64,000 nucleotides of DNA from Elusimicrobiota bacterium (GTDB taxonomy: Bacteria; Elusimicrobiota; Elusimicrobia; UBA1565), in the NCBI GenBank assembly GCA_016196755.1, contig JACPXC010000019.1, positions 62,001 through 126,000 on the forward strand, written 5' to 3'. Both the position numbers and the translations under genes were made by a program. Under the pieces are notes generated by a model. It saw only the letters and a program-made list of their open reading frames with translations. It was not told where the DNA came from and ran no database searches. Shown piece after piece: positions 10,622 through 28,764 of the stretch. Each line of letters starts with the position of its first letter. The stretch's first letter is position 1.

Positions 10622-10627
10622 CGCTGG

Positions 10628-10656: not shown

Positions 10657-10678
10657 CGTGGCGAGCACCGCTCCGGTT

Positions 10679-11731: not shown

Positions 11732-13571
11732 AGCCGGCCGACAGGATAGGAAACCGAAACCACCCCCGCGGGTCCAGACTCTCGTCATCTAGGTGGAACG
11801 ACGGGGCGTAGCGCTCCCGCTTCCACTGGTTCCGGCACCAGAGCCGGTAGAACTTCCCCACCCACGTCCTCAGGCGCTCCGAATCGCACTCCGGGAATTC
11901 GACGGCTACGACGGCGGCAGTCTCCTCCGGTCCTCGCTTGTCGCGCACGAACGCGCGCTCGATGGCGTCGAGCACCGGATAGGGCATCAGATCGCCCTCG
12001 GAAGTCTGTCCAGGCTTGAGCTCCGGCGACGGCTTGAGCTTGGCGACTGACGCCAGAGCCGGGATCGCTCCCAGTCCTTCGGGACCAGTCGTTCCCATCC
12101 ACTCGAGCCAACGGAGCAAAAACGCCTTGTCGATGCCGGCGATCGGCGCCAGGCCGCCGGCCGTGTCGCCGTCCATCGTCGCATAGCCTACCGCGGCCTC
12201 CGATCGGTCGCTCGTGCACAGGAGCAGGGCGTTGCGCGCGTTAGCCAGGAGCCAGGGCCCCGGCGCCCTGACGCGCGCCTGGATGTTCTGAAGGGTGATG
12301 TCGTCGTCATCCCACGTGAGCGTCCGTCCCAGCGCCTTCTCGGCCCGTTTCGTGAAGCCCGCGACCAGGTCGTCGACCTCCCATTCCACGTGCGTCGCCC
12401 CCAACTCCGCCGCCACCGTGCGCGCCGACGCCCGCGTCGCCGGCGAGCTATGCTCCGTGCCCTGGAACACGGTCAGGAGCCCATCCTTGCGCCGCTCCGG
12501 CCCGAGCGCCAGCGCCGCCAGCGCCGCGGTCGCCGAGGAGTCCGCGCCGCCCGACAGCGACACGACGAACCCCGAACAGCCGCTCTTGCGCAGGTAGTCG
12601 CGAAGACCCAAGCTTACCGCGCGCGTGAACTCCTCCTCCTTGAGGCGCGGGCTCCGCTCCCAAGCCGCCAATGCCGGCGCCGCGGCTTTCGACGCCGCCA
12701 ACGCGGGCCAATCGAACGGGACGGAGACTGTCCCCTCGCCGCCCAGCTCCGGCTTGAACGAAGCCGTCTTCGCGCGCAGCATCCGGTTCACCTCCACGTC
12801 GACGTCGGCCCAGACGAGGGTCCCCTCCTCGCTCGAGAACCTCTCCCCTTCCGCCGCCACCGCCCCGGCCGTGGCGACGAGCAGAGCCCCGTCGTAGATG
12901 ACCCGCCCCGCCTCGTTTCCCAGCAGGTTCGCGTAGGCGTAGGCGACCCCGAACGCCCGCGAGCCCTCGGCGACGAAGCGCCGACGGGTCTCCTGCTTGC
13001 CGAAGGCGAAATGGCTGGCCGAGGGGTTGAGCAGGATGTCGGCGCCGCGCCTGGAGAGCGAGCCGCCGGGCCGCGCCGGCACCCAGGCGTCCTCGCAGAC
13101 CTCGAAGCCGACGCCCACCCCGCCGACCACGAGCAGCAGGTCGCCCATCGGCACGCCTTCGTGCAGGACCCGGGCCCCCGCCGGCCAGGCCTTGAACCAG
13201 CGCGGCTCGTAGTGGAGGCCGTCCCCGGCCAAGTTCTGCTTTGGGACCAGCCCCTCGAGCTTGCCGTCGACGAGCAGGGCGGCGGCGTCGAACAACGCCC
13301 CGCCGTGAAAGACCGGCAGGCCCACGCCGACCGCCATGCCTTCGGTGGCCGCGGCCAGCGTCTCCAAGGAGCGCCAGGCCGCGCGCTGGACGGCCGCCAT
13401 GTGGAAGGCGTCCTCGCAGCCGTAGCCCGAAAGGGCCAGTTCCGGCAGGCAGAGGATACTCACGCCGGCCGCTCTCGCTTGTTCCACGGCCTCTAGGCAG
13501 CGGCGCAGGTTTCCGGACCAGTCCAGCGGCGTCTGGTTGAGCGCGGCCGTCGCCAGCCGTATGAGCTTCAT
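11715..13571 (-). CDS. nadE: Glutamine-dependent NAD+ synthetase
   Basis: 618 aa, two domains. The N-terminal nitrilase-like glutaminase has the E-K-C triad: Glu44 ('[12 protein letters not shown]'), Lys111 ('VPKQNL') and Cys159 ('FEVCEDAW'). The C-terminal synthetase domain carries the P-loop 'SLSGGADSS' (near 340) and a conserved '[15 protein letters not shown]' segment. It makes NAD+ from deamido-NAD+, ATP and glutamine, the last step of the salvage route. It is the last gene of the seven-gene operon and overlaps pncB by 4 nt. The domain lengths are normal and no key residue is missing. Confidence 0.95.
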
Positions 13572-14932
13572 GGCGCGGCTTCCTCTAAGTCGAGCTCGAG
13601 GCTGACCGGGTAGACGCGCGGGGACTTGAAGCGCAGGAGCTCTTTGGGCAGCAGTGCCAACTGCGTCTTGGCACGGGCACGGATGGCCGCCAAGTCGGGC
13701 GACGGACAGACCCGCTCGCCGTTGCGGAACACCGGCACGAGCAGGTCCTCATAGGGACTCTCCCCGTACGGCGGGCACCCGAGCAGGTCGAAGATGGCGT
13801 CATGGGAGGGGCGGCCCTCCTTGAAGAAACGCCGGACCTGCAGGGCCCCGGGATAGGACGATTTGCCCGCCTCGCTCGAGATCTTGCGGGTCCGCCGCCA
13901 CTCGCCGTGGAGCGTCTTTATCGCCGAGAGCTTATATACCCCGCCCAACGCCGCCTGGTCGCCGCCCGTGACCAGCCGGGTGCCGACGCCCCAAACGCCT
14001 ATCGGCGCCCCCTTCTCGACGAGTTCGGCGATACGATGCTCGTCTAAGTCGCTCGAGGCCGTTATCACCGCGTCCACGAATCCCGCCTCATCGAGGATGC
14101 GCCGCGCCTTGAGGCTCAGGTCGGCCAAGTCTCCCGAGTCGAGGCGCACGCCCGCCAGTCGGCGTCCGCGAGCCTTGAGCCATTCCCCCACCTCGACGGC
14201 ATGCCTGACGCCGGCTAAGGTGTCGTAGGTGTCGACCAGGAACGCGCAGTCGCCGGGCATCGCTTCGGCGTAAGCCTGAAAAGCCTCGAGCTCGTCGCCG
14301 AAGGCCATCACCCAGGAATGCGCATGCGTCCCGCGGACAGGGATCCCCAAAAGCTTGCCCGCCAGGAGGTTCGAGGTCGCCGCACACCCTCCAATATAGG
14401 AGGCCCTGCTTGCGCTCACCCCCCCGTCGACGCCCTGGGCGCGCCGCAGGCCGAACTCGAGCACCGGCGCCCCGCCGGCAGCCGCGGCCACGCGGGAGGC
14501 CTTGGTGGCGATCAGGGTCTGGAAGTTCATGATGTTGAGCAAGGCCGTCTCCAGGAGCTGGCACTGCAGGAGCGGCCCCTGCGCGCGCATCATCGGCTCC
14601 GGAGCGAAGATCGCCGTCCCTTCGGGGACGGCGTCTACGTCAAGCGAGAGCTTGAGGCCCTTGAGATAGGCGAGGAAGCCCGGCTCGAAGAGCCCCAGCG
14701 ACTTGAGGTAGGCCAGGTCGTCCTTCGTGAATCGGAAGGCCTCGATGTACTCGGCCGCCAAAGCCAAGCCGCAGGCCACGGCGTAGCCGCCGCCGAAGGG
14801 GTTCTTTCGGAAGTAGAGCTGGAACACGGCCTCGTCGTCGTGCCGGCCGGACTTCCAGTAGCCCTGCGCCATGGTCAGCTGGTACAGGTCCGTGAGCAGC
14901 GACAACGACGTGCCGTAAAGAGACCCGATCAT
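13568..14932 (-). CDS. pncB: Nicotinate phosphoribosyltransferase
   Basis: 454 aa. The N terminus ('[15 protein letters not shown]') and the region around '[20 protein letters not shown]' are diagnostic for bacterial NAPRTase; the catalytic-His region is recognisable in '[15 protein letters not shown]', and '[13 protein letters not shown]' is the PRPP-side motif. It converts nicotinate and PRPP to nicotinate mononucleotide, usually with ATP hydrolysis. The frame is open upstream, but ATG 14932 gives the exact family N terminus and an ATGA overlap with the kinase gene. No NaMN adenylyltransferase (nadD) is in the window, so that step must be encoded elsewhere. Confidence 0.95.
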
Positions 14933-15780
14933 AACCCCTCCATGCCGACGACGTGCAGCGGATGCTTCGACAGGCGGACCTCGGCCTGCGCGGCGAACGT
15001 GAAAGGCGTCTCCTCGAGCGAGTCGACCGCCACGATGCCCTCGGCGTCGTTGAGCGAGCGGACCTTGAGCGTCCGGTCCTTGGTGAGCACCCCCCGGCCC
15101 AGGCGCAGGCGCCCCCCTCTCGGGAAGGGCTCGGTCAGGACCCAGCGCGCGTCGGCCGTGAAAGGCTTCCCGTAGTGTCCGTACCAGCCCGTGGAGCCCG
15201 CCGGCGTGCTGACCAAGAGCCCCGAGGACTTGTGCTCCTCCTCGAGCTCCCCGACCCTCAGCACGTGCCGGCTCATGTGCTTGCGCTGCCGCTCGCCGAT
15301 GAAGAGCTCGCTGGTGGCCAGGCCGGCGAAGCGCCCGCCGACGCGCACCTCGAGCCGCGGCCACGCCGACACGCTCCCCCAGCCCGCGCGCAGCACGTCG
15401 GAGGCGGCCTCGAGCTGGCGCTCGTCGAGCTCGAGCAGCCCCCCGTGGCTGCGGACGCGGTCGGCGTTGACGCCCAGGATCGGCGCCTTGCGCAGGAAAT
15501 GCGAGACGTAGATGAAGTGGTTGTCCCCGCCCAGCGCGATGACGAGCGAGGCCTTGTCGATGCCGGCATCGACCATCTCCCGAGGGACCACCCGGCACTC
15601 GGGGAAGAGCTCCAACAGGCGCTGGCGGACGGCCAACTGCCTGTCGTGGGAGTCCACGATGACCCCCGCGCGGTCCCGGTACCAGGAGAGCAGCCTCTGG
15701 CGCGACCAGCCGAGACGCCGCTGGTCGTACTCGAGCTTGCTCTCCTTGGGCACCAGGACCGCGCGCCGCAGCCAGTTCAT
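14929..15780 (-). CDS. NAD kinase-like protein (atypical GGD motif)
   Basis: 283 aa. The NAD kinase core is visible: '[10 protein letters not shown]' (GGD at 84-86) in the place of the usual GGDGT, 'ILGVNADR' for the NxD segment, and '[15 protein letters not shown]', the hallmark S-T-P-x-G-S-T strand. The enzyme phosphorylates NAD(H) to NADP(H). The replacement of GGDG(T/N) by GGDNHF is unusual and could alter phosphate-donor use. The start at 15780 gives a 4-nt overlap with the vWA gene. Sitting between salvage genes and a signalling triad, it suggests joint control of NAD and NADP pools. Confidence 0.8.
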
Positions 15781-16559
15781 GGCGTCCCGAACCCGCCCAC
15801 CGAGGCCGTGGTGAACTGCCCCGCGCCCTGGCTGGCCCGCACCGCCGACTGCGAGAACACCGCGAAGGCGCGACGGATCTCCCCGGCCCCCGCTCCGGGG
15901 GTCAGGATCCATTTGTCCTCGATCCCCATCTCCCGGAAGACCTTCCGGAAGTCGGTGCTGCCGTCGTCGACGCCCAGCGCCGCCACGATGTGGCGCTCGG
16001 CGCGCAGCAGGTCCTTGACCAGCGCCGCCACGTCCTTGGCCTTCGAGCGCGAGGAGCCCTCGTCGGCCCCGTCGCTGAGCAGCAGGGTCACGGTGCGCGC
16101 CGGCACGCCGGCCTCGGCGAACTGCCGGCACTTGGCCAGCACCGTCCCCAGGAGCACCACCGCCTGGTCATACAGGGGCGTCCCCAGATTCGGGTCGAAG
16201 TTCTTCGAGTCCATACGCACCGCGCCCGAGAGGCCGCAGTACGGGTAGAGCACCGTCCCGTTCAAGTAGCGGGTGTGCACCAGCACCCCCTCCTTGGACT
16301 TGGAGCCCGCCAGGGCGTCGAGCACGTGGTTGTGCCCGTCGCGCAGGGCCTGGGCGTTGCCTCCGAAACGTATGGAGCCCGAATCGTCAGGCATCATCGT
16401 CACCAGCAGGACCTCGCTGGCGGCGACGTCGTCGGGCAGCACCCCCAGCCCGGCCTGGATCTGCGCCCCCAGGTCCGGGATCGACAGGGCCGACATCGCG
16501 GCGTCGGACAGCTCCCCGTCGGCCTTCGCTCCGTTAAACAGCTCTTTCGGGTCGTTCAT
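15777..16559 (-). CDS. vWA-domain protein (TerY-like)
   Basis: 260 aa. A von Willebrand A domain with a complete MIDAS start, D-D-S-G-S ('[13 protein letters not shown]', near residue 55), a later Thr-containing loop ('NLGTPLYDQ') and the Asp loop '[12 protein letters not shown]'. The fold binds a divalent metal and partner proteins. Cytoplasmic, no signal peptide. With the PP2C and kinase genes of the same operon it matches the TerY-P triad described in tellurite-resistance-like signalling systems (family knowledge). It starts 11 nt after the hydrolase gene and ends in an ATGA overlap with the NAD kinase gene. Confidence 0.85.
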
Positions 16560-16570
16560 GGCATCCCCCC

Positions 16571-17629
16571 CTACAGCTCGATCCCCGGCCACGACTCCAC
16601 CGGGTCCGTCGACTTGACCAGCCGCATCCCCGCGTCGGCGAAGCGCTGGAAGGCCGCCTCGGCCTGGGCGGTGAAGTCCGCAACGAAGCCGCCCTTGCCG
16701 TCCGGCACCGTCACCGCCGACATGCAGTCGGTCAGGATGTAGACCTTGCGCGCCAGCGCCGGGTCCTGGGCGAGGATCTCGCCCAGCAGGTCGTCGATCG
16801 AGCTTTTCACGCAGTGGCTCGACGCCTGTCCCGCGATGACGACCGCGTCCGACGACAGCAGGGTCTTGAGGAACAAGGAGTTCCTCTGGGCCAGCGGCGC
16901 CCCGTCGTGGCGCGTCAGCACCTCCGGGCGCAGCACCGAGTAGTTCTCGGTCAGGGCGTTGCCGCCCTTGACCTCGACCCACGACTGCGCCCCGCGCACG
17001 AAGGAATGGAACATGCGCGCCTCGTGCAGGACGCCGGTCAGGGCGTGACCATCCGAGCCCAAGAGGCAGTGCGGCGGCCAGAGGTAGAGCTTGTATTTCC
17101 CGGCCTTCTCGAGCTCGGTGCAGTAGTGCAGGGCCTGCTTCACGAGCCAGGAGTAGTTCCCCCCGCACAGCCACTTGGCTACCGCCGGCGACGGCCGCAC
17201 CTCCCCGCGTCCCACCTCGTCGGCGGTGATCTCGCGGAACGCGCCCAACGGGCGGTCCTCCCGGTCGATCCAGAACGACGGGAAGAAGATCTGATAGGCG
17301 AAGTGCGTGTCCATCGTCGTCGTCACGTTGGTGATCCGACCCAGCTCGCGGTACATGAACTCCGCGATGCGGCGGCTGTCGGCGATCGCCCCCTGTCCCG
17401 AGCGGCCCGCGACGTAGAGCGTGCCCCCCGGGAAGCAGAAGTCCTTCTGCGCGTCGATGAGGAGGAGATGGATGCCGAAGCGGTCCGAGGCCGCGGGCAG
17501 GATGCCCTGGCTCCGGCGCCACTCCGACGCCTCCGTGAAGAGCTTCTGCTGGTCCGGCCGGTACTCCCACCTCGCGGCGTTGGCCGGGTCGTAGAACCCC
17601 GGCAGGGCCGACGGTGCCTTGACGATCAT
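16571..17629 (-). CDS. Nicotinamidase-like cysteine hydrolase (isochorismatase fold)
   Basis: 352 aa, much longer than ordinary PncA (about 200). Catalytic Asp59 is in 'LLLIDAQKDFCFPGG', a metal-binding D-x-H follows in 'TTTMDTHFAYQ', the Lys is in 'VEVKGGNALTENYS', and the nucleophile Cys with its cis-peptide motif is in 'VIAGQASSHCVKSS'. The extra length is an N-terminal extension of about 50 residues plus inserts. Nicotinamide deamidation to nicotinate would feed directly into pncB and nadE of the same operon, which is why I prefer nicotinamidase over other isochorismatase-fold hydrolases. ATGA overlap with the kinase gene. Confidence 0.75.
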   Translation of the reverse strand: MIVKAPSALPGFYDPANAARWEYRPDQQKLFTEASEWRRSQGILPAASDRFGIHLLLIDAQKDFCFPGGTLYVAGRSGQGAIADSRRIAEFMYRELGRITNVTTTMDTHFAYQIFFPSFWIDREDRPLGAFREITADEVGRGEVRPSPAVAKWLCGGNYSWLVKQALHYCTELEKAGKYKLYLWPPHCLLGSDGHALTGVLHEARMFHSFVRGAQSWVEVKGGNALTENYSVLRPEVLTRHDGAPLAQRNSLFLKTLLSSDAVVIAGQASSHCVKSSIDDLLGEILAQDPALARKVYILTDCMSAVTVPDGKGGFVADFTAQAEAAFQRFADAGMRLVKSTDPVESWPGIEL

Positions 17630-19386
17630 ATGCGCGCCTCCTGTTTTACTTCGAGTTTGACGACCTCGCGGCGGTTGGCGGCCATCAGGCCGCCCGCTCC
17701 CGCCGCCAGCCGGGTGCTGGCGTCCACGAACGGCTCGGTCTCCGAGTATTCGACCGCGCCGCAGAGCGTCTCCGTGACCCGGACGATGCCGCGGTCGGTG
17801 GGGATGAAGAGATGGGCGCCGGCCGCGCAGGCCCCGCGCGCACCCTCGAGCCAGGGAGCGTCGTCGATGCTGGCCTTGACCGCCCCGTCCTTGCCGACGA
17901 CGACCAGCCGCCGGGTCAGCGTACCGCCGCGCTCGAGCTCGAGGGTGAGCCAGGCCAGCCCCGCGCCGAACTTGCAGTCGGCGTGGAGCAGGCGGCCGCG
18001 CATGGCGGGCAGCTGGACGCCGTCGGCCAGGCCGCGGCGATGCGCGTCGAATAGGAAGGCCACGGACACGCCCCCGGCCCGGTAGAAGCCAAAGCCGAAC
18101 TCGGGGCCCGCCCAGAGCCGGGTCTGCCCGGCCAGCACCTCGCCGAAGCGCTCGTCGCCGTGCGCGCCCTCGCGCCAGAGCGCCCCGTCGCGCTCCCAGT
18201 ACGAGCGGCCGCCCGCGAAGGCCACCGCCTCGTCCTTGCCCACCGCCATGGTCTGCTTGCCGTGCAGGAAGTAGCGCGTCCCGGGACGCAGCGGCCCGCG
18301 CAGGGCCACCGTCCCGTCCTCGCGCCGGAACTCCCCTCCTTCATAGACGAGCCAGCCGTCGGGCGAGACCGCCACGACCTCGCCGTCGGTGTCGAGCAGG
18401 CGGGTGGCGGTGACCGCCCCGCGCACCGTGACGACGCGTTTCTTGCCCGCGGCCCCCGGCAGGGCGCAGGCCGGGCAGGCCGCGCGCGCGTGGGTCAGCC
18501 CGCAGGCCGCGCAGCGCGTCCAGCGCAGGTCGTCGAGCAGGGGGCGAGGGAACGGCCCGCGCCGGTCCTGGACGAAGGTCTCGTGGAAACGCTGGAGCAG
18601 GTCGTCAGGCAGGACCTTCCAGGGCAGGGCCGCCTTGGGGACCTTCACGCGCGGGTCGAATATGGTGACGCGCTGGAGCGCGCGGTCGCAGGGCCGGCCC
18701 CCGCCTGGCAGGACGCCCCCGTAGGGATGGACGTAGAGCAAACACTGGAACAGGAGGGTCTCGAAGGCGTACCAGTCGCTGGCGCTGGTATGGCAGGCGG
18801 TGAGCCGCAGGGCGTTGGGCTCGCAGCAGAGCGGGTCGACGAAGCGCTCGGTGTAAGCCAGGCAAGGATGGGGGCCGAACTGGAAGCTGTCGGCGTCGAT
18901 GAGGTGGGCGAGGCCGCCCGCCGCGAGGACGTTCAAGTCGTTGAAGTCCCCGATGACCACCCCGGCCTCGTGCACCCGGGCCACCGTGGCCAGCAGGTCG
19001 GTGAAGAGCGGGGTCAGCGCCGCCGGGGGGATGGCGCGCCGGAAGGCCGGCTCGGCCCAGCGCAGCAGGGGCTCGGCGTCGCCGATGAGCTTCATCGTGT
19101 AGCCGGCGGCCTGCCCCTTGCGGTCGAGCGCCACCTCGAGCGGGGCCACGACGCGCGGCGGGAGAGCCCTCGGGAACTCGCGCAGCTTCTGTCCCCGGGT
19201 GGCCAGGCGCTCGCGCGCGGCGCGCTGCTCGTCGGGCAGGCCGCGGTAGTCGGGGTGGTCCGGTCCCTTGTAGAGCTTGAGCGCCAGCCCAGAGCCGATG
19301 TCGTAGACGTCGGCCTCGCCGCCGGAGCCGATCAGGGCCGAGGGCGCCAGGCGCAGGCGGCGGCCGCCGAGCATCACCTCATTCAT
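17626..19386 (-). CDS. Protein kinase-like protein with zinc ribbon and C-terminal beta-rich domain
   Basis: 586 aa. N-terminal kinase fold: Gly-rich loop 'IGSGGEADVYDI', the ATP-binding Lys in 'LALKLYKG', catalytic loop 'VIGDFNDLNVL' (Asp and Asn in the right spacing, but no classical HRD), and 'LIDADSFQF' where DFG would be. Then a zinc ribbon 'CAACGLTHARAACPAC' (about 290-305), then about 270 residues of beta-rich repeats that resemble a propeller. This kinase plus ribbon arrangement is the kind found in TerY-P triads. It probably phosphorylates a protein in this operon, opposed by the PP2C encoded just upstream. ATGA overlaps on both sides. Confidence 0.8.
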   Translation of the reverse strand: MNEVMLGGRRLRLAPSALIGSGGEADVYDIGSGLALKLYKGPDHPDYRGLPDEQRAARERLATRGQKLREFPRALPPRVVAPLEVALDRKGQAAGYTMKLIGDAEPLLRWAEPAFRRAIPPAALTPLFTDLLATVARVHEAGVVIGDFNDLNVLAAGGLAHLIDADSFQFGPHPCLAYTERFVDPLCCEPNALRLTACHTSASDWYAFETLLFQCLLYVHPYGGVLPGGGRPCDRALQRVTIFDPRVKVPKAALPWKVLPDDLLQRFHETFVQDRRGPFPRPLLDDLRWTRCAACGLTHARAACPACALPGAAGKKRVVTVRGAVTATRLLDTDGEVVAVSPDGWLVYEGGEFRREDGTVALRGPLRPGTRYFLHGKQTMAVGKDEAVAFAGGRSYWERDGALWREGAHGDERFGEVLAGQTRLWAGPEFGFGFYRAGGVSVAFLFDAHRRGLADGVQLPAMRGRLLHADCKFGAGLAWLTLELERGGTLTRRLVVVGKDGAVKASIDDAPWLEGARGACAAGAHLFIPTDRGIVRVTETLCGAVEYSETEPFVDASTRLAAGAGGLMAANRREVVKLEVKQEARI

Positions 19387-20039
19387 GGCAGCCTCCGGAT
19401 GACGGCCGCGGTGGCGTCGTCGGCCAGACGCTGGAGCTTGAGGGCCCGGCGCAGGAGGTCGGGGTTCTTGAGGAAGCGGTCTTCGGTCCAGAACGGGGTC
19501 AACTCGCCGTCCGCCGCCCCGTCGGTGCCGACCAAGACGCGCTCAGCGGGCCCTTGGTAGAGGCGCTGAAGGCCCACCGCGCCGTCCTCGAGGCCGTAGG
19601 CCAGATAGGGCGGGGCGTTGCCTGGGAACGGGCCCAGACGCGTCACGTTCCCGTCCACGACGGCCACCCCGTCGCCGCAGGCGAACACCGTGGCGGTCTC
19701 CCCGGCCAGGGCCGCGCCGACGATCGTGAATAGGAAGTGGGCCCGGAAATCCAGCCCGGCGGTCTCCGCGATGCGGCAGAGCCCGCCCAGGACCTCGCCT
19801 CCCAGCGCCGCCAAGTCGAGGCTTCCGGTCGTCTCGAGCTGACGTGCCGCCGCGCGGGCCGTCAGGGAGGCCCCCAGGGCCGCCCCCAGGCCGCTGCCCG
19901 GCTCGGAGCCGCAGCCGTCGCAGACCACCGCCACGGCGCCCCAGGGGCCCTGCCGGAGGCCGCAGGCGTCCTGGTTAGGACGCTCGGCGAGGAGGTGGAG
20001 TCGTCCCGGGGTGGTGCCCGCGGCGAGTAAGTGTCTCAT
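19383..20039 (-). CDS. PP2C-family protein phosphatase
   Basis: 218 aa. Short PP2C domain: 'RPNQDACGL' (the early Asp), 'VAVVCDGCGSEPGSGLGA' (the D-G-x-G metal motif), 'FACGDGVAVVDG' and 'VLVGTDGAADGEL'. It should remove phosphate from Ser/Thr residues using two metal ions, and is the natural antagonist of the adjacent kinase. The start at ATG 20039 is preferred over an upstream in-frame codon (20060), because the promoter's -10 box ends only 8 nt before it; the mRNA would then be leaderless. It is the first gene of the NAD/TerY-P operon. Confidence 0.8.
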   Translation of the reverse strand: MRHLLAAGTTPGRLHLLAERPNQDACGLRQGPWGAVAVVCDGCGSEPGSGLGAALGASLTARAAARQLETTGSLDLAALGGEVLGGLCRIAETAGLDFRAHFLFTIVGAALAGETATVFACGDGVAVVDGNVTRLGPFPGNAPPYLAYGLEDGAVGLQRLYQGPAERVLVGTDGAADGELTPFWTEDRFLKNPDLLRRALKLQRLADDATAAVIRRLP

Positions 20040-20040
20040 A

Positions 20041-20057
20041 TACACCATTATGGTGTA
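20041..20057. promoter_or_regulatory. Operator-like 17-bp inverted repeat
   Basis: TACACCAT-T-ATGGTGTA: two perfect 8-bp arms around one base. It covers the -10 box (20047-20052) and the predicted transcription start of the NAD/TerY-P operon, so a bound repressor would block transcription. NAD operons are often repressed by palindrome-binding regulators such as NrtR or NiaR; which protein acts here cannot be told. Confidence 0.7.
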
Positions 20058-20075
20058 CAATTGACACTATGTCAA
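20047..20075 (-). promoter_or_regulatory. Promoter of the NAD salvage/TerY-P operon
   Basis: Minus strand: perfect TTGACA (20075-20070), 17-nt spacer, CATAAT (20052-20047), then 7 nt to ATG 20039. Confidence 0.8.
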
Positions 20076-20091
20076 GACCCAGGACTGGGTC
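20061..20091. other. Two further adjacent inverted repeats upstream of the NAD operon
   Basis: TTGACA-CTA-TGTCAA (20061-20075) is a palindrome containing the -35 box. It is directly followed by GACCCAG-GA-CTGGGTC (20076-20091), which in RNA could also form a six-pair stem with a four-base loop at the end of the TPR lipoprotein gene; no U-run follows, so it is a weak terminator at best. Confidence 0.55.
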
Positions 20092-20096
20092 CTCGC

Positions 20097-21026
20097 CTAA
20101 CGACGCCGGTATTTTTTTTCCGCGTACCCTATGACGACCGCCAGCTCCCCGGTCAGCGCCGGACGCAGACGGACCGCTTCCTTCCAGTCGGCGACCGCCT
20201 GCGGGTACTGCTTGGCTTGATAATGCGCGTATCCCCGGCCGCTATGGTGCGACGCCTCGCCGCCCTCGAGCTTGATGGCGACGGTATAGTCGGCGACCGC
20301 CTCGCCCTCGCGTGTCGCCGCAACGAGAGCGCCGGCCCGGGATGAATAGCCGACGGGCTGCTCGGGCGCCAGACTGATGGCCCGGCCATAGTCCGCGATC
20401 GCTCCCTCATGCTCGAACAGCGCCAGCTTCGCGTCGCCGCGAGCCTTCCAGGCCTCGAAACTCCGAGGTTCCCGCTCGAGCATCTTGTCGAAAAGCTCCA
20501 CCGCTCGCTCATGATCGGACAACCGGCGCAATTGGTCTCCCCTGCGCAGATACGCCTGGACCATCGCCGGATCCCATTCCAGCGCCATCCGGAACGTCTC
20601 CTGGGCTCCGTGGTGGTCGCCCATACGAGCCTTCGCCAGGCCGGCACTGTATGCAGCCCCGGTAAGACCGGGGTCCAGCCGGATCGCCTGCTCCAAGTCG
20701 CTAACAGCCTCCCCGTACTCCCCCAGGTCGAGCCGCGCGTTCCCCCTGTTGTACCACGCAACCGCCAGGCGAGGATCCATACGGATCGCTTCCGTAAAGT
20801 CTTCGATTGCGCCATGAAAATCCAACTGCTCCAAGCGGTACCGGCCACGCCAGTTGCGGGCCAAGGCATCGGCCGGACTCTCCGCGATACGAGCGGAGAG
20901 CGCTTCTTCGACATCCGCCCGTTCTATGAGCCACTTCCGCAGGGCCGTCGAGTCCACAGCTCGCGGACGACGCCCGCAAGCGGAGATCGCGAGCACGGCC
21001 AGAGCGGTGATGATAAGCCGTCTCAC
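20097..21026 (-). CDS. TPR-repeat lipoprotein
   Basis: 309 aa. The N terminus is a lipoprotein signal: 'ALAVLAISACGRRPR', lipobox I-S-A-C, so the mature protein would be lipid-anchored at Cys17 or close to it. The rest is about seven tetratricopeptide repeats ('AVAWYNRGNARLDLGEYGEA' is typical). TPRs bind other proteins. It overlaps the upstream TPR gene by 4 nt, so both are made together and probably act in one envelope complex. Confidence 0.85.
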   Translation of the reverse strand: MRRLIITALAVLAISACGRRPRAVDSTALRKWLIERADVEEALSARIAESPADALARNWRGRYRLEQLDFHGAIEDFTEAIRMDPRLAVAWYNRGNARLDLGEYGEAVSDLEQAIRLDPGLTGAAYSAGLAKARMGDHHGAQETFRMALEWDPAMVQAYLRRGDQLRRLSDHERAVELFDKMLEREPRSFEAWKARGDAKLALFEHEGAIADYGRAISLAPEQPVGYSSRAGALVAATREGEAVADYTVAIKLEGGEASHHSGRGYAHYQAKQYPQAVADWKEAVRLRPALTGELAVVIGYAEKKYRRR

Positions 21027-22432
21027 GGAGCCGCCGCCGGCAGGCCTTTCTTCAGGTCCGCGATGATCGGTTCCAGATTGAGACTGGGATTGAGGCGGAA
21101 GGCTTCTTTGTAGTCGGACAGCGCTCGGAGCCGCTCCTTCCGCTTTACGTGAAGTTCCCCACGGATGGTGAAAGCCTGGTCCAAGCTCGGGTTAAGCTCG
21201 ATCGCCAAATCGCAGTCCGCCAAGGCTTCCGTCAGCCGGTCCAACCACATGTAAGTCGCACAACGATGCCGATATGCTTCGAAACTCCGAGGCGCGAGGT
21301 CTATCGCCTTGTTGCAGTGCGGGAGGGACTTGTCAAAGTTGCCCTCGGTTCGCTCGATATTGCAGAGGTTGATCTCGGGTTGAGGGTCCTTCGGGCTGAG
21401 TTTCATGTGCGTCTTGGCATCGGCGCGCGCCCCGTCAAAGTCATCCAGCACCATGCGGATGTTCGAGCGTCCCGCGTAGGCGTCGGCGAACCTCGGAGCA
21501 AGCTCAATCGCCCGCTCGAGGTCCGCCAGCGCCGCTCTTTCCTTGGAGAGCTTCTCTTCAGAGAGCTCTCCAACCGCGTAGCTGGCGGCATGGAGCGCTC
21601 TGGCGCGATCGAAGTATCCCGACGGATCTTTGGGCGTAGCTTCGATCACGGCGGAGAGGTCGCGAAGCTGTGCATCGAAATCATAGAGAGCCCCTTCGAC
21701 TTCCGCCCGCTCGCTCAAGAGATACGGATTTCGCGGCAGGAGCGCTATTGCCTGGTCCAGATCCTTGATAGCGGCCGGGTAACCGGTACGGGAGCCTCTG
21801 CTATAGAGAGTTTGCGCGCGACCGAGAAGAGCCGGCGCGGAGCGTCCGTTGACATTCAACACAGCGCTGAAATCGAGAAGTGCCTCGTCATAGGCCATCC
21901 GCCCCCGCCGCAGGCTTCCCCGCTCCAAGAGCGCCGGTTCGAAGCCCGGTCGGACGTCCAAGGCCTGGTCGAGGTCTTTCTCGGCGGCAGCCGAGCGCCC
22001 CAGGCCGCGCAAGATGGCCGCACGGACGGCCAAGAGCTCCGGCGCTTTGGGACGGAGCGAAGCGGCTTTCTCGATGTCGAGCAGCGCCCCGGGCAGGTCA
22101 CCGAGCTCCTTGCGCGCCAGAGAGCGCTGAAAATAGACCCCCGAAAGGGCCGGCTCGAGCTCCAGCGCCCGGCCGAAATCCGCGACCGCGTCCGGAAGCC
22201 GCCGCAGCTCCTTATTGAGGAAACCGCGGAAGTAATAGGCCTTGGCGTTGTCCGGCTGCTTTTTGAGGATGGCGCTGAAGTCCTTCAGTGCTGTCTGGTA
22301 CTCGCTGCGATACACGCCATCGACGGCGCGCTCCATCAAGCGCTGAGGCGTCGGATGGCGCTCACGATAAAAGAACGCCCCTCCACCTAGCATGAGGAGA
22401 GCGGCACCACTTAACAGGATACGGCGCAACAT
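21023..22432 (-). CDS. Membrane-anchored TPR-repeat protein
   Basis: 469 aa. A short basic N terminus and one hydrophobic segment ('ILLSGAALLMLGGGAFFY') anchor the protein, followed by about eleven TPRs over the whole length ('AKAYYFRGFLNKELRRLPDA', 'AFTIRGELHVKRKERLRALS'). Orientation suggests the repeats are outside the cytoplasm. A TATGCT hexamer stands six nt before the ATG, but no matching -35 is visible, so the promoter is uncertain. Unlike the TPR giants at 23-36 kb, its repeats lack the 'WAWRGE' signature. Confidence 0.85.
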   Translation of the reverse strand: MLRRILLSGAALLMLGGGAFFYRERHPTPQRLMERAVDGVYRSEYQTALKDFSAILKKQPDNAKAYYFRGFLNKELRRLPDAVADFGRALELEPALSGVYFQRSLARKELGDLPGALLDIEKAASLRPKAPELLAVRAAILRGLGRSAAAEKDLDQALDVRPGFEPALLERGSLRRGRMAYDEALLDFSAVLNVNGRSAPALLGRAQTLYSRGSRTGYPAAIKDLDQAIALLPRNPYLLSERAEVEGALYDFDAQLRDLSAVIEATPKDPSGYFDRARALHAASYAVGELSEEKLSKERAALADLERAIELAPRFADAYAGRSNIRMVLDDFDGARADAKTHMKLSPKDPQPEINLCNIERTEGNFDKSLPHCNKAIDLAPRSFEAYRHRCATYMWLDRLTEALADCDLAIELNPSLDQAFTIRGELHVKRKERLRALSDYKEAFRLNPSLNLEPIIADLKKGLPAAAP

Positions 22433-22635
22433 CGCTTCAGCATAGCGACGAACTGGGCCGGCCGATACCCCCTTTCGGCCAGGATGCTGTCTGGGCCATC
22501 AGGCCCAATGATCTAGAACCCTCCGTTTCCGCGCCCGCTCTGGAGCCAGCCTAGCCGCCCCCCATATAAAGGCCCCAAGGCCATCATCGTCCGCTTCGGG
22601 GGCCGCACGCCCAAGGCACGGGCGATGCGCTCCTC
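22433..22635. other. Intergenic region with small inverted repeat
   Basis: About 200 bases between a minus-strand TPR gene and the plus-strand HEPN-like gene. It holds a perfect hairpin TGGGCC-ATCA-GGCCCA at 22492-22507 without a T-run, and a CATATAAA stretch near 22563. The reading frame of the HEPN-like gene continues upstream only to a stop at 22567. Nothing else recognised. Confidence 0.4.
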
Positions 22636-22866
22636 GTGGCGAAAGCCGGCCTGCGCTCGAGCTCAAAATCCCACGAGGACGCGGCCGACCTGATCGCCCT
22701 TCATGTCAACGACCCGCAGACCAAAGAGCAGGCCCGACGTCTTCGTCGCATCCTCGAAGAAAAGAACCTCATAGAGTACGTGGACAAGAGCTATCGAGAG
22801 GACGACGCGATCGAACTGCTAAAGCACGTCGAACGCTTCACTTCCTGGGTCAGAGACCTGCTCTAA
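22636..22866 (+). CDS. Short HEPN-like protein, probably N-terminally truncated
   Basis: 76 aa from a GTG. 'GLRSSSKSHEDAADLIALHV' and the end 'KNLIEYVDKSYREDDAIELLKHVERFTSWVRDLL' (given in parts: 'NLIEYVDK', 'ERFTSWV') resemble the second half of small HEPN-fold toxins that usually have 120-140 residues. In-frame codons upstream of the GTG ('GDALL') also fit the family, but a stop at 22567 ends the frame, so the N-terminal helices are missing. It may be a relic of a HEPN/MNT-type toxin-antitoxin pair. Its 3' end overlaps the convergent gene by 17 nt. Confidence 0.5.
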   Translation: MAKAGLRSSSKSHEDAADLIALHVNDPQTKEQARRLRRILEEKNLIEYVDKSYREDDAIELLKHVERFTSWVRDLL

Positions 22867-23191
22867 GCGCCGCGGCGCGCTCTCTAGCCGAAGCGGCCTC
22901 CGAATTTCGACCCGAAGACTCCAAGAGCGCCGCGTATTCCGTGAAGAGCCTGCTCAACGCGTCCAAGAGCTCGGGAGAAGCCTTCTCGCCGCGCAAGGCG
23001 AGAGACAGGAACTGCTCCAGCGGGAAAGCCAGGGCCAACTGACCGTTCATGCCGAAGGCCTTCTCGAGCGCGCTCTCCAGAGCGGCTATCGACGCCTGGA
23101 CCTCGCCCCTTCCCTTGAGTCCAAGCACGGTGCCGAGCGCCTGGGTCAGGATTTCGAGGTGCCTCTTGAACCATTCGCGGCGGATCGACAC
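22850..23191 (-). CDS. Small helical protein ending the TPR gene train
   Basis: 113 aa from GTG 23191, which lies one nt after the stop of the 1020-aa TPR gene; longer starts would run inside that gene. All-helical: 'REWFKRHLEILTQALGTVLG', then a TPR-like C-terminal hairpin 'LFTEYAALLESSGRNSEAA'. The pattern resembles DUF6483-type proteins (from memory, not verified). It probably functions with the TPR proteins. The last gene of the minus-strand train. Confidence 0.65.
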   Translation of the reverse strand: MSIRREWFKRHLEILTQALGTVLGLKGRGEVQASIAALESALEKAFGMNGQLALAFPLEQFLSLALRGEKASPELLDALSRLFTEYAALLESSGRNSEAASARERAAALRAGL

Positions 23192-23192
23192 C

Positions 23193-26100
23193 CTAGACCA
23201 CCCTGTTCCCGCCGGCGCGCTCGAGGAGGGCGCGGGCGGCTTTCTCGGCGGCCGCGCCTTTTCGGCGCCGGAAATTGTCGCCAAACAGCGTCCCGCGCAG
23301 AGCGACGAGGTCTCTCTCCTTTCGAAGGAGCAGGAACCGGTGGAGCAGGGCCCAGCGGTGCCCCGGCACGAGACGCAGGACCTCACCTATATCCTTGAGC
23401 GCCCCCGAAGGGTTTCCGACCGCCAGTCGAGCCTCGGCGCGCCAGATCCGGGCCTCGACGTCGCGCGGGTCCAGCGTCAGGCCCTTATCCAAGGCTTTGA
23501 GGGCCCCGCGCGCGTCGCCGCCCAGGAGCCTGCACGCGCCGAGCCAGCCGTGCGACCAGGCGTGCTTGGGATCGAGCTTGAGAGCGCGCTCCAAGTCCTT
23601 CGCGGCGGCCTTCGGGTCGCCGGTCCGCAGGAGGAACTGCCCTCGCCAAGCCAGGGCCCAAGCCTCCCCGGACGCGGCCACCGCGCGGTCGAAGGCCTTC
23701 TTCGCCTCGGCGCTCCGCCCCAGCCTCCAGCGCGCCTCGGCGAGGAAGGCCCAGGTCTTGGCGTGGCCGGGGACGCGCCGCGCCGCCGCGCCCAAGTCGC
23801 GCGCCGCCTCGCTCCAGCGCCCGGTCTTGAGCGCGGCCTCGCCGCGCAGGCGCCGGGCCCAGAACGCCGGCACCTTGCCCTCCAAGAGGCCGTCTAGGGT
23901 CGCGAACATACGCTCGTAGTCTTCCTCGCCGAGCATCCTGCGTTCAGCCAGTCCGCCGGGACCGGCCGCCGCGCGGCGCAGGAGGCCCTTCAGCTTCCCG
24001 CCCGGCTCGATGAGCCAGAGCCAGACCGCGTACTCGCCGAGCTCCCAGGCCTTGCCGAGCGCGGCCACGACGCCGTCCGCGTCCCTGCCGCGCAGCGCCT
24101 CGGCCAGCGCCAGCCAGCCGCCCTGGCACCCCGGATCGGCGCCGACCGCGGCGCGCGCCGCGGCCTCGCCCCCGAGCTCGGCCAACTGCTGCGCCAACTG
24201 TCGGCGCGGCGCGGGAGCCAGGAGACCCGGCGATGCCTTCACGGCGGCCGCGAAATCGAACAGGCTGTCCTCGTGGCGCCCCAGATCCTGGCGTGCCAGA
24301 GCGCGGGCTACGAGCGCGCGAGGGTCGCCGGGCGCCGTCGCCACCGCCGTATCGAGCTCAGCCGCCGCCTCGGCGGCCTTGCCCAGGGCGCGCAGGGCCT
24401 CGCCGCGCCCTCGCCGCGCCTCGAACGAGCGCGGGTCCAAGCTCAGCGCGCGGCCGTAGTCCGATACGGCGCCGGCGGCGTCGCCGCCGCGCAGGCGAGC
24501 CTCGGCGCGCCACGCCCAGGCCCAGGCCGTCTTCTGGTCGAGCTTGAGCGAGGCGTCGAAGGAGTCGAGCGCCTCGGGGAGCCGGCCCAGCGCCGCCAGC
24601 GCCACGCCCTTCCAGGCCCAGGCCCGCGGGTACTCGGGGTCGAGCTTGGCGGCGCGCTCGAGAGCCCGGATGGCCTCCCGGTGTCGGCCGCCGCGAACCA
24701 GCGCCTCGCCGAGCCAGGCATGGGCCCAGCCCCAACGCGGAGCCCGGCGCGCCGCGGCGCTCAAGTCCCGCACCGCGCCGTCCAAGTCGCCGGTCTTGAG
24801 CCGCGTCTCGCCGAGCCAGGCCAGGGAACGCCCGCTGTCGTCGCGGCGCGCCGCCTTCGCCAAAGAGGCCAGCACCTCCCTTGCCTCGGCCTCGCGACCC
24901 GCCGCCGGCCCGTCGAACCAGGCGTACTTCGGGTTCATGCGCGCGGCGCGCTCCATGTCGAGCATGGCGTCGGCCTCCTCGCCGCTAGCGAGCAGGGCCA
25001 AAGCGCGGTTGTGGTAGGAGAGATCGTAGAGCGGGTTCAAGTCCACGGCCCGGTCGAGGTCGGCCACCGCCGCGCGCGCCCGGCCGAGCTGGCGGTACAG
25101 GGTACCGCGCCAGGCCCAGGCATGGATGTAGCCCGGCGAGAGCTCGACGGCGCGCGTCAGCGCGGCCTCGGCCTCCTCGAAGCGGCGCGCCTTGCGCAGG
25201 GCCTCGCCGCGCCAGCCATGCAGCCAGCCGCAGTCCGGGTCGAGACGGATGGCCTCGTCGATGCGCTCGAGGCCCTCCGGGCCGCGCCCGGTGTTGCCCA
25301 GCGAGCGGCCCAGGAAGGCCTGCAGCCAAGGCGAGCGCGGCCTCAGCGCGCAAGCTTTGCGCAGGTCAGCCGTGGCCTCGTCGTAGAGCGCCAGGTTCGG
25401 CATGCGCTTGAGCTCGCCGCGCAGGGCCCAGGTCCAGGGCGCCTCGGGCCGTCCGCGCACCGCGGCGTCGAGGGTGGAGAGTCCCTCCGGCGTGTCGGGC
25501 AGGTCGCCGCAGCCGAGGAACGAGTAGTAGGCCACCTTGCAGTCGTGGTCGACGCGAACCGCGGCCTCGAAGTCGGCCGCGGCCGCGGCTTCGGCGCCGT
25601 CCCATAACCGGGCCTGCCCGCGCATGACCAGCGCCCCCGGGCACGAGGGGTCGAGCCCGGCCGCGGCGTCGAACTCGGCGGCCGCGCCCTTGAAGTCGCG
25701 CAGGCGCACCGCGAGGATCCCGCTCAGGACGCGGCCGAGGAACAGACCGCGGCCCGTATCCCCGGCGGCTTCGAGGTCCTTCTGGGCGTCGCCTAGGCGC
25801 CCCTCCTTCAGAGAGCCCCCCGCGCGCCAGAGATAGGTCCATGGCATCGACGGGTCGGTTTTCGCCGCCGCCTCGAAGGCCGCCTCCCAGCCCGCCTCGC
25901 CGGTCTCCCGGTCGAGCTCGCCCAGGGCCGCGCGCGCGTAGGCCAGGCGTCCGTCGAGACGCAGGGCCGCGCGCAGGTCGCGGCGCGCGCCGGCCGCGTC
26001 GCCGGCCAGGCGCCGCGCGCGGCCGCGCCAGGCCAAGGCTTCCGCGTCGCCCGGCGCGGCGGCCACCGCGGCGTCGAGGAGCCTCGGCGCCCCGCCCAGG

Positions 26101-26255
26101 CGGCGCGGGTCGTAGCTCGGCCCGCGCCACAAGCAGTAGCCGCCCCAGTGCTTGGCGTCGACCGAGGTCCCGTGGTCGAGACCGGCCACGACTTGCTCGG
26201 CGCGCACCGCGTCGAGCTTGCGGCGCGCCTGGGCCTTGAGGGTCCCGGCCTTCAC
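23193..26255 (-). CDS. Giant TPR-repeat protein (1020 aa)
   Basis: Almost wholly tetratricopeptide repeats of about 34 residues, more than 20 of them, many with the special signature W-A-W-R-G-E/Q ('AWAWRAEARLRGGDAAGA', 'AWAWRGTLYRQLGR'). No signal peptide and no catalytic domain, so it should be a cytoplasmic protein scaffold. GTG start at 26255 with a GTGA overlap to the upstream TPR gene. The strong W-x-W-R-G-E bias is common to all five TPR proteins between 23 and 36.5 kb, pointing to descent by duplication. Confidence 0.85.
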   Translation of the reverse strand: MKAGTLKAQARRKLDAVRAEQVVAGLDHGTSVDAKHWGGYCLWRGPSYDPRRLGGAPRLLDAAVAAAPGDAEALAWRGRARRLAGDAAGARRDLRAALRLDGRLAYARAALGELDRETGEAGWEAAFEAAAKTDPSMPWTYLWRAGGSLKEGRLGDAQKDLEAAGDTGRGLFLGRVLSGILAVRLRDFKGAAAEFDAAAGLDPSCPGALVMRGQARLWDGAEAAAAADFEAAVRVDHDCKVAYYSFLGCGDLPDTPEGLSTLDAAVRGRPEAPWTWALRGELKRMPNLALYDEATADLRKACALRPRSPWLQAFLGRSLGNTGRGPEGLERIDEAIRLDPDCGWLHGWRGEALRKARRFEEAEAALTRAVELSPGYIHAWAWRGTLYRQLGRARAAVADLDRAVDLNPLYDLSYHNRALALLASGEEADAMLDMERAARMNPKYAWFDGPAAGREAEAREVLASLAKAARRDDSGRSLAWLGETRLKTGDLDGAVRDLSAAARRAPRWGWAHAWLGEALVRGGRHREAIRALERAAKLDPEYPRAWAWKGVALAALGRLPEALDSFDASLKLDQKTAWAWAWRAEARLRGGDAAGAVSDYGRALSLDPRSFEARRGRGEALRALGKAAEAAAELDTAVATAPGDPRALVARALARQDLGRHEDSLFDFAAAVKASPGLLAPAPRRQLAQQLAELGGEAAARAAVGADPGCQGGWLALAEALRGRDADGVVAALGKAWELGEYAVWLWLIEPGGKLKGLLRRAAAGPGGLAERRMLGEEDYERMFATLDGLLEGKVPAFWARRLRGEAALKTGRWSEAARDLGAAARRVPGHAKTWAFLAEARWRLGRSAEAKKAFDRAVAASGEAWALAWRGQFLLRTGDPKAAAKDLERALKLDPKHAWSHGWLGACRLLGGDARGALKALDKGLTLDPRDVEARIWRAEARLAVGNPSGALKDIGEVLRLVPGHRWALLHRFLLLRKERDLVALRGTLFGDNFRRRKGAAAEKAARALLERAGGNRVV

Positions 26256-28750
26256 GCGGCCTTCCTGTAGGTCCGGTTGCCGCGCCGCTCGGCGCGCAGG
26301 GCTTCCAGCGCCGCGCGCGCCCGCGCGGCGTCGGCCGGCGGCGGCAGGAGAGGGGCGTGCAAGCGCGCCGCCTTGTAGTCCGAGAGCAGGCCCTTCTCGT
26401 CGCCGAGGCGGCCCTTCACCCAGGCGCGCAGCGCCCAGGCCCAGAACTGGCCGGGGTCGCGGCGCAGAGCCTCGTCGAGCGCGCCGCGCGCCGCGGTCAG
26501 CTTCCCCGACAGCGCCAAGGCCTCGCCGAGAAACAGACGCGCCTCGTGATCGGCGGGGTCGAGCGAGAGCGCATGCTCCAAGTCCTTAAGGGCGGGGGCA
26601 TGCCGTCCCTGCAGGGCGCGCGCGGCCCCCCGCCAGCCCCAGGCCCAGCCTTGTCCAGGGTCGACGGCCAGCGCGGCGCCCAGCTCGCTCTCCGCCTCGC
26701 CATAGCGCCCGAGCCACAAGAGCAGCTGGCCGCGCCAGGCCCGCGCCCAGGCCGCGGCCGGCGCCGCGCGCAAGGCGTCCAAGGCTGATGCCTCGGCCTC
26801 GGGATGACGGTCCAGCCAATAGAGCGCCTCGGCGCGCCAAAGCCGTGGTCGCGCCTGAGCGGGGGCCAAGGCCGCCGCGCGCTCGAGAGGGGCCAGCGCC
26901 GCCTCGAAGCGGCCCGATTTGAGCGCCGCCTCGCCGCGCGCGCATTCCAAGAACCACGGACAGCCGGCGAACAGGGACTTGGCGGCCTCGATGTGGCGCG
27001 AGAACTCGCGGGTCTCGTCGAGCGTCAGGGCCAGGCGCGCGAGGATGTAGCGCCGTACCGCCTCGGCCCCGCCGTGGGCTCTCACTCTCCTCAGCGCCGC
27101 CGCGCGCTTGGGCGACGCGGAGTCGGCCGCCTGCGCGCTCGAGGTGGCCGGCCAAGCCGCATGCTCCCAGGCGTTGGCGGGGTCGAGCCGGGCCGCGCGC
27201 AGAAGGAAGTCGAGGCCTTCGCGCCAGCGTCGGCGCTCGAGGCGCGAGCGGCCCAACCAGGCGCAGACCTCGGCGGTGTCGACGCCGAGCTCGGCGGCGC
27301 GCTCGAGCAGGGCGGTCTTGGCCGGGTCGCCGAGGCCGGAGGGGCCAGACGCCCGCCAAGCCAGCAGATGGAGCGAGCCCGAGCTCGGGCGCCGCCGCAG
27401 GTCGGCCTCGAGGACGGAGCGCACGGAGGACCCTCGGCCCTTCGAAAACTGGTCCTCCGCCCAGAGCCGCCGGTCGCGCTCGCTGGGCTCGGGCGGAGCC
27501 GCCAACGAACGCGCGAGCGCGCGCGTCATCTCCCCGTCGAGGCCGGCCGGCGCGCCGTCGCGCGCCGCGGGGGGCAGGAGGCGCAGGCCGGCGGCCAGGT
27601 CGCAGACCGCTTCGTCCTTCGCGCCCAAGCTCAAGAGGACCATGGCCCGGCTGACGCGCGCGAAGCCGTAGAGCGCGTCGCGGCCGTCGTGGGCGGGCTC
27701 CAGGTGCATGAGGAGGTTCAAGTCCTTGAGCGCGCCTTTGTGATCCTTCAGATTGCGCCGCGCCTCGCCGCGCCAGAACAGCGCGCGCGGGTCCAAGGGA
27801 CGCGCCGCCAGAGCGCGGTCCAGCTCACGGGCGGCGGGCTTCCAGCATCCGGAGCGAGCCAGTGCCTCGCCGAGTCGGGCGCGGATCCAGGCGCTCTTGG
27901 GATCGAGGGCGGCGGCGCGGGAAAGGTCCTGGGGGTCGGAACCGGCCACGCCGCGCCAAGCCCAGACCCATGCCGAAGATCTCTGGCGGGACAACCCGCT
28001 CTTCCCGTCACCGAGAAAGTCATAGGCGCCCGAGGCCCGCGGGTCCATGCCGAAGGCCGCATCGAGGTCGCGTCCCGCCCCGGCCTCGTCGCCGGTCTCG
28101 GAGGCCAGCTGACCACGCAGGGCGAAGGCCCAGGCGCAGGACGGCTCGAGGCGCAGGGCCGCGTCGAGGGCCGAGCGCGCCTCGTCGGCCCGGCCCAGCG
28201 CGCGCAGGGTCTCGCCGCGCCAGGCATGGGCGAGGTAGTGCTCGGGCTCGTGATGGACGGCGGCTTCGAGCTCCTTGAGCGCTTCGGCGTCGCGGTTAAC
28301 CGCGCGCAGGGCCTTCGCGCGCACGATGCGGGGCCAGGATTGCCGCGGGGCTCTTCTTATCGCCTCGGCTGCGGCTTTAAGAGCGGCGGGCAGGCGGCCG
28401 GAACAGCGCAGGGCCTCGGCTAACGCACCGGGGCCGGCGGGCTCGGGACTGGATTCGGCGAGGGCCCGGGCGTCGGCGATGGCGCCGGGCCAGTCGCTCA
28501 AGCGCCGGCGGAGCTCGGCGCGGGCGCCCAGGAAGCGCGGCGCGGCCGGCGAGAGCGTCAACGCCTGGTCGAGGTCGGCGAGGGCCCCGGGGAGATCGTT
28601 GAGCCGACGGCGGGCTTCCGCGCGCAAGGCCCAGCAGTCGGGGGCCTGGGGACTCTCATCGACGGCGCGCGAGGCGGCGACCAGGGCCTCCTCGAAACGG
28701 CGCGCCTCGAGCGCGGCGCCGGCGGCCAGGATGGAGGCGGAGCCTTTCAT
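26252..28750 (-). CDS. Large TPR-repeat protein (832 aa)
   Basis: About 18 TPRs of the same W-A-W-R-G type ('AHAWRGETLRALGRADEA', 'GWAWGWRGAARALQGRHA'), interrupted near residue 380 by a less regular segment. Start at ATG 28750: the frame is open further upstream, but that stretch belongs to the AbiEi gene in another frame. Only 14 nt separate it from the end of the AbiEi gene, so it is probably transcribed from the AbiE promoter at 30.15 kb now that a terminator-like hairpin stands upstream of that cassette. Confidence 0.85.
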   Translation of the reverse strand: MKGSASILAAGAALEARRFEEALVAASRAVDESPQAPDCWALRAEARRRLNDLPGALADLDQALTLSPAAPRFLGARAELRRRLSDWPGAIADARALAESSPEPAGPGALAEALRCSGRLPAALKAAAEAIRRAPRQSWPRIVRAKALRAVNRDAEALKELEAAVHHEPEHYLAHAWRGETLRALGRADEARSALDAALRLEPSCAWAFALRGQLASETGDEAGAGRDLDAAFGMDPRASGAYDFLGDGKSGLSRQRSSAWVWAWRGVAGSDPQDLSRAAALDPKSAWIRARLGEALARSGCWKPAARELDRALAARPLDPRALFWRGEARRNLKDHKGALKDLNLLMHLEPAHDGRDALYGFARVSRAMVLLSLGAKDEAVCDLAAGLRLLPPAARDGAPAGLDGEMTRALARSLAAPPEPSERDRRLWAEDQFSKGRGSSVRSVLEADLRRRPSSGSLHLLAWRASGPSGLGDPAKTALLERAAELGVDTAEVCAWLGRSRLERRRWREGLDFLLRAARLDPANAWEHAAWPATSSAQAADSASPKRAAALRRVRAHGGAEAVRRYILARLALTLDETREFSRHIEAAKSLFAGCPWFLECARGEAALKSGRFEAALAPLERAAALAPAQARPRLWRAEALYWLDRHPEAEASALDALRAAPAAAWARAWRGQLLLWLGRYGEAESELGAALAVDPGQGWAWGWRGAARALQGRHAPALKDLEHALSLDPADHEARLFLGEALALSGKLTAARGALDEALRRDPGQFWAWALRAWVKGRLGDEKGLLSDYKAARLHAPLLPPPADAARARAALEALRAERRGNRTYRKAA

Positions 28751-28764
28751 CGCCGATTCCCGGT

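Follow-up and report, generated by a model that had tools for sequence, protein, structure and literature searches.

The 64,000-nt stretch of Elusimicrobiota DNA considered here (the window) raises the question of what three palindromes, placed side by side upstream of a set of NAD-related genes, are there for, and whether the palindromes themselves are the units that matter. A preliminary description of the locus had listed the following perfect inverted repeats, all of which are found where it placed them:

20041-20057, plus strand: 17-bp inverted repeat TACACCAT-T-ATGGTGTA
20061-20075, plus strand: 15-bp inverted repeat TTGACA-CTA-TGTCAA
20076-20091, read on the plus strand (no strand assigned as a feature): third palindrome GACCCAG-GA-CTGGGTC, an 8-bp hairpin, flanked by the -35 hexamer and by the stop codon of the upstream TPR gene

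The window contains 172 perfect palindromes (arms of at least 6, loops of 1-3), and 20041-20091 is its sole place with three non-overlapping ones inside 55 bp; no such place arose in any of 12 dinucleotide shuffles.

Very probably, this region is the promoter-operator of a seven-gene operon, which carries two boxes for an NrtR-family regulator and would be repressed until ADP-ribose brings about release. The operon consists of the following genes:

19383-20039, minus strand: PP2C-type phosphatase, first gene of the operon (PF13672, 1.4e-14)
17626-19386, minus strand: kinase-like protein (weak match to the LanL kinase region, 2.7e-7, residues 105-226)
16571-17629, minus strand: nicotinamidase (pncA)-like protein/isochorismatase fold (weak, 2.5e-6; Pfam 0.0038)
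15777-16559, minus strand: possible von Willebrand A (vWA) domain protein (weak, 0.045)
14929-15780, minus strand: NAD kinase-like protein, nadK (2.5e-9, under the family cut-off; Pfam 2.1e-4)
13568-14932, minus strand: nicotinate phosphoribosyltransferase, pncB (NF006695, 536.8 bits against a cut-off of 469)
11715-13571, minus strand: glutamine-dependent NAD synthetase, nadE (PF02540, 4.7e-35; PF00795, 4.2e-21)

These genes overlap or nearly touch, the kinase-like gene overlapping the PP2C stop codon by 4 nt. Only PP2C, pncB, and nadE score above a curated family cut-off, and the four other names denote weak matches; the LanL match of the kinase-like protein, which has no Pfam match, lies far under the family cut-off. 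Large TPR-repeat proteins, with ORFs of 1020 and 986 aa, are encoded one after another on the operon's strand and upstream of it (21023-29212 of the window), and two minus-strand ORFs at 7445-8443 and 9503-10657 contain, by translation, the Walker-type AAA ATPase sequence GPTGTGKT.

The promoter itself is built from the following elements:

20070-20075, minus strand: -35 hexamer TTGACA, present in all nine Elusimicrobiota PP2C promoters
20051-20069, minus strand: box 1 TAGTGTCAATTGTACACCA (AGTGT-N7-ACACY), an exact match and one of two in the genome
20047-20052, minus strand: -10 hexamer CATAAT, directly following box 1 (TATACT or similar in orthologues)
20029-20047, minus strand: box 2 TGGTGTATATGAGACACTT (reverse complement AAGTGTCTCATATACACCA), straddling the start codon
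20037-20039, minus strand: ATG of the PP2C gene, 7 nt past the -10, predicted leaderless

On the minus strand, TTGACA (20075-20070), a spacer of 17 nt, and CATAAT (20052-20047) give 11 of 12 matches to a sigma-70-like promoter, the only such match in 1.2 kb as compared to 0.1 expected. The reading of this site as the promoter of an NAD-salvage operon is supported. The box is 19 bp long and its two copies lie with their centres 22 bp apart; the core GTGT-N7-ACAC of box 1 (20053-20067) plus 2 nt makes up the whole 17-nt spacer, while the right half of box 2 encodes codons 2-4 of PP2C.

The palindromes described earlier are real, but as a unit they were wrongly drawn: the 17-bp and 15-bp repeats are by-products of two AGTGT-N7-ACACY boxes plus the -35 hexamer. 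From the arrangement of half-sites, the 17-bp palindrome can be read as two half-sites that face each other, the right one of box 1 and the left one of box 2, and the 15-bp palindrome as the left half of box 1 together with the -35, a reading adopted because the promoters of PP2C orthologues show two boxes. Moreover, the repeat reaches beyond the interval originally named, to 20029, across the start codon and into coding sequence. A suggested search of the genome for other copies of the 17-bp repeat gave none at up to 2 mismatches and one place at 3 mismatches, the repeat being the wrong unit.

The third palindrome is probably unrelated to the boxes, its left arm occurring in the window alone among the nine Elusimicrobiota orthologues. 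It folds into an 8-bp stem of ordinary energy (z -1.2); a terminator scan returned no terminator here, the fold lacks a U-run, and this role was rejected. G189 has an unrelated, long and very strong hairpin at this position (L009:1102-1142), just upstream of the -35; its stem measures 19 bp and its energy is -32.8 kcal/mol (z -7.3), and it probably terminates the nrtR gene located before it. As a separate observation, TGGGYC directly before TTGACA recurs in most of the promoters compared (window 20076-20081, L058, L059, L060, L062, L007-L010, and L046), the corresponding 12-mer is found 13 times in the window at up to 2 mismatches as compared to 4.4 expected, and promoters of the lineage may share it more widely.

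Within the 4.59-Mb genome, the pattern WAGTGTN7ACACYW has two exact matches, both at the PP2C promoter, and the full pattern TTGACANAGTGTYN6ACACYATAMT is confined to this promoter. A copy with one mismatch and with both GTGT and ACAC intact, unique in this respect among one-mismatch matches elsewhere, ends 3 nt 5' of the ATG of nrtR, the gene of the genome's own NrtR-like regulator. Ten further one-mismatch rows either lie elsewhere or repeat the boxes already named in reverse reading; with 6 rows for the reversed control pattern, the remaining places are taken as chance level.

The preliminary description had staked its reading on conservation upstream of orthologous operons, and such conservation is indeed observed. 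A PP2C orthologue is present in four of eight family genomes, in at least 9 of 340 Elusimicrobiota genomes (a floor, since the phylum-wide search scored just 8 first-look candidates per genome), and in L013, a record titled Deltaproteobacteria. All orthologue promoters share the order TTGACA, 2 bases, GTGT-N7-ACAC, and a -10-like hexamer, in most cases followed after 0-2 bases by a second GTGT-N7-ACAC that encloses the ATG. The core of box 1 is exact in 9/9 Elusimicrobiota PP2C promoters and that of box 2 in 7/9, as are both in L013 / G340; G003 and G213 retain just the right half of box 2, the left one being lost. The ATG lies 6-8 nt past the -10 in all nine, and the box centres, 22 bp apart in the window, are 21-23 bp apart elsewhere. 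(In the geometry comparison, the G006 row is an SPFH promoter, its PP2C promoter being covered separately; G642 shows no ATG within the stretch scanned; and G708, whose -35 is one base closer, has no row.) Base changes are symmetrical, ACACTA pairing with TAGTGT in G228 and G188 and ACACCA with TGGTGT in the window and L013. The PP2C orthologue of G189, as assembled, also contains an in-frame TAG (L009:1343-1345), which is either a sequencing error or the mark of a broken gene.

The coding half of box 2 appears to be constrained at the DNA level. Codon 4 of PP2C is TTA in eight of nine Elusimicrobiota orthologues (TTT in G228), a codon used for 7 of the 563 leucines in ten genes of the window. 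N-terminal codons in bacteria tend to be AT-rich, which makes this argument weaker than that of the shifting half-site: ACAC lies 5 nt after the ATG in Elusimicrobiota and 4 or 3 nt after it in the second phylum (that of L013), so that the N-terminal peptide differs between lineages (MRHL, MNTK, MTRT) and the box is unchanged.

Searches at the DNA level in both phyla for two exact cores in tandem (GTGT-N7-ACAC-N6..8-GTGT-N7-ACAC), with the reversed pattern as control, delineate the regulon. Of 340 Elusimicrobiota genomes, 8 contain the tandem (control 0), and these coincide exactly with the genomes that have both this NrtR and the PP2C operon; their 11 sites comprise 7 PP2C and 4 SPFH/Band_7 promoters. 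In the second phylum, 18 of 377 genomes contain it (control 0), and the genes after their 19 sites are nine PP2C, seven nrtR, one SPFH, one pncB, and one low-complexity artefact (G496). The 30 sites in total, chosen by exact cores so that promoters with one mismatch are missed, thus divide into 16 PP2C, 7 nrtR, 5 SPFH, 1 pncB, and 1 repeat artefact, two of the PP2C calls being made without a Pfam scan (L068, the same gene as L013, and L114, recognised by its sequence). Eight of the nine second-phylum PP2C genes have an ATG inside box 2, and L067 has a GTG there. In front of SPFH and several nrtR genes, the tandem is likewise locked to the -35/-10 and is then followed by a leader with a ribosome site, which ties the tandem geometry to the promoter and not to the start codon. 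SPFH/Band_7 genes carry the twin boxes in five genomes of two phyla (L058, L059, L060, L062, and L071), and this membrane-scaffold protein accordingly seems to be part of the NAD regulon.

As to the regulator, an NrtR- or NiaR-like protein had been proposed. The 3H domain of NiaR (PF02829) is found in none of the eight family genomes, the source genome included, whereas an NrtR_WHD protein is encoded away from the operon on contig C5 (nrtR, L018:2830-3528), and this gene, too, is preceded by the box. It combines a Nudix domain (PF00293, 4.3e-23) with the NrtR winged helix (PF21906, 3.9e-24), both over cut-off; its score against the equivalog of ADP-ribose-responsive NrtR (NF050029) is 166.2 bits as compared to a cut-off of 400, and it is hence filed under the wider NrtR family only. 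The trait of this family, a palindromic site before NAD genes and before the regulator's own gene, is present. NrtR_WHD occurs in exactly the four of eight family genomes that have the operon and, over cut-off, in 11 of 340 Elusimicrobiota genomes. NrtR and the PP2C orthologue occur together in eight Elusimicrobiota genomes (hypergeometric 3.6e-13, ancestry not being controlled). In G003, nrtR is the last gene of the operon, and boxes overlap the nrtR starts of G188 and G189; G213 has the operon and box 1, and NrtR was not found in this genome (92 % complete). In the second phylum, NrtR is found in 17 of 18 tandem genomes (it is absent in G496) as compared to 13 of 45 sampled genomes without the tandem.

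The best PDB match of the regulator is not the NrtR of Shewanella oneidensis (SoNrtR; PDB 3gz5/3gz6) but the arabinose regulator AraR of Bacteroides thetaiotaomicron (BtAraR, BT0354; 2.8e-43), another member of the NrtR family. According to the available excerpts of its report, Lys179, Arg180, and Asn181 of BtAraR read GTGT in a crystal with GTGT-TACTTTT-ACAC DNA, and its EMSA sites share the GTGT-N7-ACAC spacing, one operon (araM) being preceded by two in tandem (PMC4666351). By alignment to BtAraR, with one regulator taken per tandem genome (three second-phylum genomes have 2-3), these three GTGT-reading residues of the Bacteroides AraR branch are kept in 25 of 25 regulators, all with the recognition helix DKRNFR. 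Asp178, Arg183, and Arg205 of BtAraR are likewise identical, while Lys204 and Gly89 differ. The same helix also occurs in 4 of 16 regulators of genomes without the tandem (G338, below the profile used, was left out), and no exact box lies in the 3.2-kb nrtR loci of these four. SoNrtR shares the Nudix and winged-helix domains and the NAD gene targets; its recognition helix, however, is QGKSFRR.

The pocket, judged by the aligned residues, is mixed between SoNrtR and BtAraR features. An Arg is found in 25/25 at the SoNrtR Arg98 position (Gly89 in BtAraR), and the ADP-ribose contacts Asn43 and Lys76 of SoNrtR are not retained, the window's regulator having Val and Glu at these positions. The features of the L-arabinose pocket (Phe36, and Gly89 with the nucleotide cleft filled) are replaced by Val and Arg in this regulator. 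Of the 25 regulators, 24 (all but that of G677) have an intact Nudix motif, unlike most described NrtRs, where it is reported as impaired in the available part of PMC4666351, and the regulator may hence also hydrolyse ADP-ribose.

Could the palindromes nevertheless be operators in their own right, with dimers on the 17-bp dyad centred on the -10 and on the 15-bp dyad at the -35? Both repeats are perfect in the window and the -10 dyad is present in several orthologues. We regard this as very improbable, as G003 and G213 have lost the 17-bp palindrome while retaining box 1, its centre changes in length along with the distance between the boxes (21-23 bp), single boxes without it stand at nrtR in G000, G188, and G189, and the BtAraR site in the published crystal is, in the excerpted account, GTGT-N7-ACAC. 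A role of the repeats as RNA hairpins, in attenuation or in the control of translation, is less credible still: inverted repeats can fold, as the 8-bp hairpin of the third palindrome illustrates, but its energy is ordinary, a start at about 20039-20040 would leave box 1 and the left half of box 2 untranscribed from this promoter, and the SPFH and several nrtR promoters carry the tandem upstream of the leader.

More weight is due to the possibility, in our view a minority one, that boxes and regulator family are as proposed and the effector is something other than ADP-ribose, for example, a pentose as in BtAraR or NAD as in Corynebacterium NdnR. It draws on BtAraR being the closest solved relative, on the response of NdnR to NAD (in the available part of PMC4666351), and on Arg34, Arg86, and His131, positions common to BtAraR and the regulators, which are identical in SoNrtR as well and so do not discriminate effectors. 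Against it stand a regulon of NAD salvage and signalling genes, the Arg at the Gly89 position, and Val or other residues in place of Phe36.

With ADP-ribose as the preferred effector, two NrtR-family dimers would bind the two AGTGT-N7-ACACY boxes upstream of the PP2C operon, on the same face of the DNA since 22 bp correspond to about two helical turns. The dimer on box 1 would fill the whole -35/-10 spacer, that on box 2 would cover the transcription start and the start codon of the putative leaderless mRNA, and both together would exclude RNA polymerase. Upon NAD breakdown, ADP-ribose would bind the Nudix domain, the dimers would leave, and salvage would be switched on. For a regulated leaderless operon, acuR-acuI-dddL of Rhodobacter offers a parallel, with a regulator that presumably belongs to another family. 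It serves a different pathway (in the available part of PMC3017554).

Other known systems share parts of this arrangement. In Mycobacterium, as far as the excerpts of PMC6800001 extend, NrtR likewise has a palindrome with a 7-nt centre before NAD genes, represses its own gene, and is released from DNA by ADP-ribose; however, its half-site is GTTTTCGA instead of AGTGT, it controls de novo nadABC, and its Nudix motif is impaired. The BtAraR sites, which belong to arabinose genes with an L-arabinose response, are given as 3 bp apart (PMC4666351, excerpts), as compared to box centres 21-23 bp apart here, and differ from the present boxes, which precede NAD-salvage and PP2C genes and keep a fixed position relative to promoter and start codon. 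Earlier examples of the protein family, of the box, and of tandem sites come from Bacteroides, and the NAD role is known from other NrtRs. New within the literature searched are their joint occurrence in Elusimicrobiota and a second phylum, an operator held in register with spacer and start codon, and the inclusion of PP2C, kinase-like, and SPFH genes in the regulon. Among open-licence papers, none was found that links NrtR with Elusimicrobiota or PP2C, NrtR and leaderless genes were co-mentioned only incidentally and in a single paper, and a search for TerY/PP2C/vWA triads linked with NAD gave no useful result; an NrtR motif for comparison was absent from PMC6363681 and from the available parts of PMC5343134 and PMC12735969.

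A regulator, a candidate binding site, and a regulon are thus assigned to Elusimicrobiota and a second phylum from raw sequence, together with a sharp prediction that pairs NrtR residues with sites. The operator geometry is compact, one box exactly fitting the 17-nt spacer and the other lying on the start codon. NAD salvage is, in addition, tied to a set of PP2C, kinase-like, and SPFH genes. As a bolder and rather doubtful proposal, a leaderless start within box 2 would keep the operon under particularly tight repression, and both phyla might share a response to NAD breakdown, in which a regulator with an AraR-type reading head, an NrtR-type pocket, and an intact Nudix motif would both sense and destroy ADP-ribose, so that NAD cleavage (e. 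g., under stress or attack) would cause a time-limited release of a regulon joining NAD salvage, phospho-signalling (PP2C, kinase-like, and vWA-like proteins), and an SPFH membrane protein.
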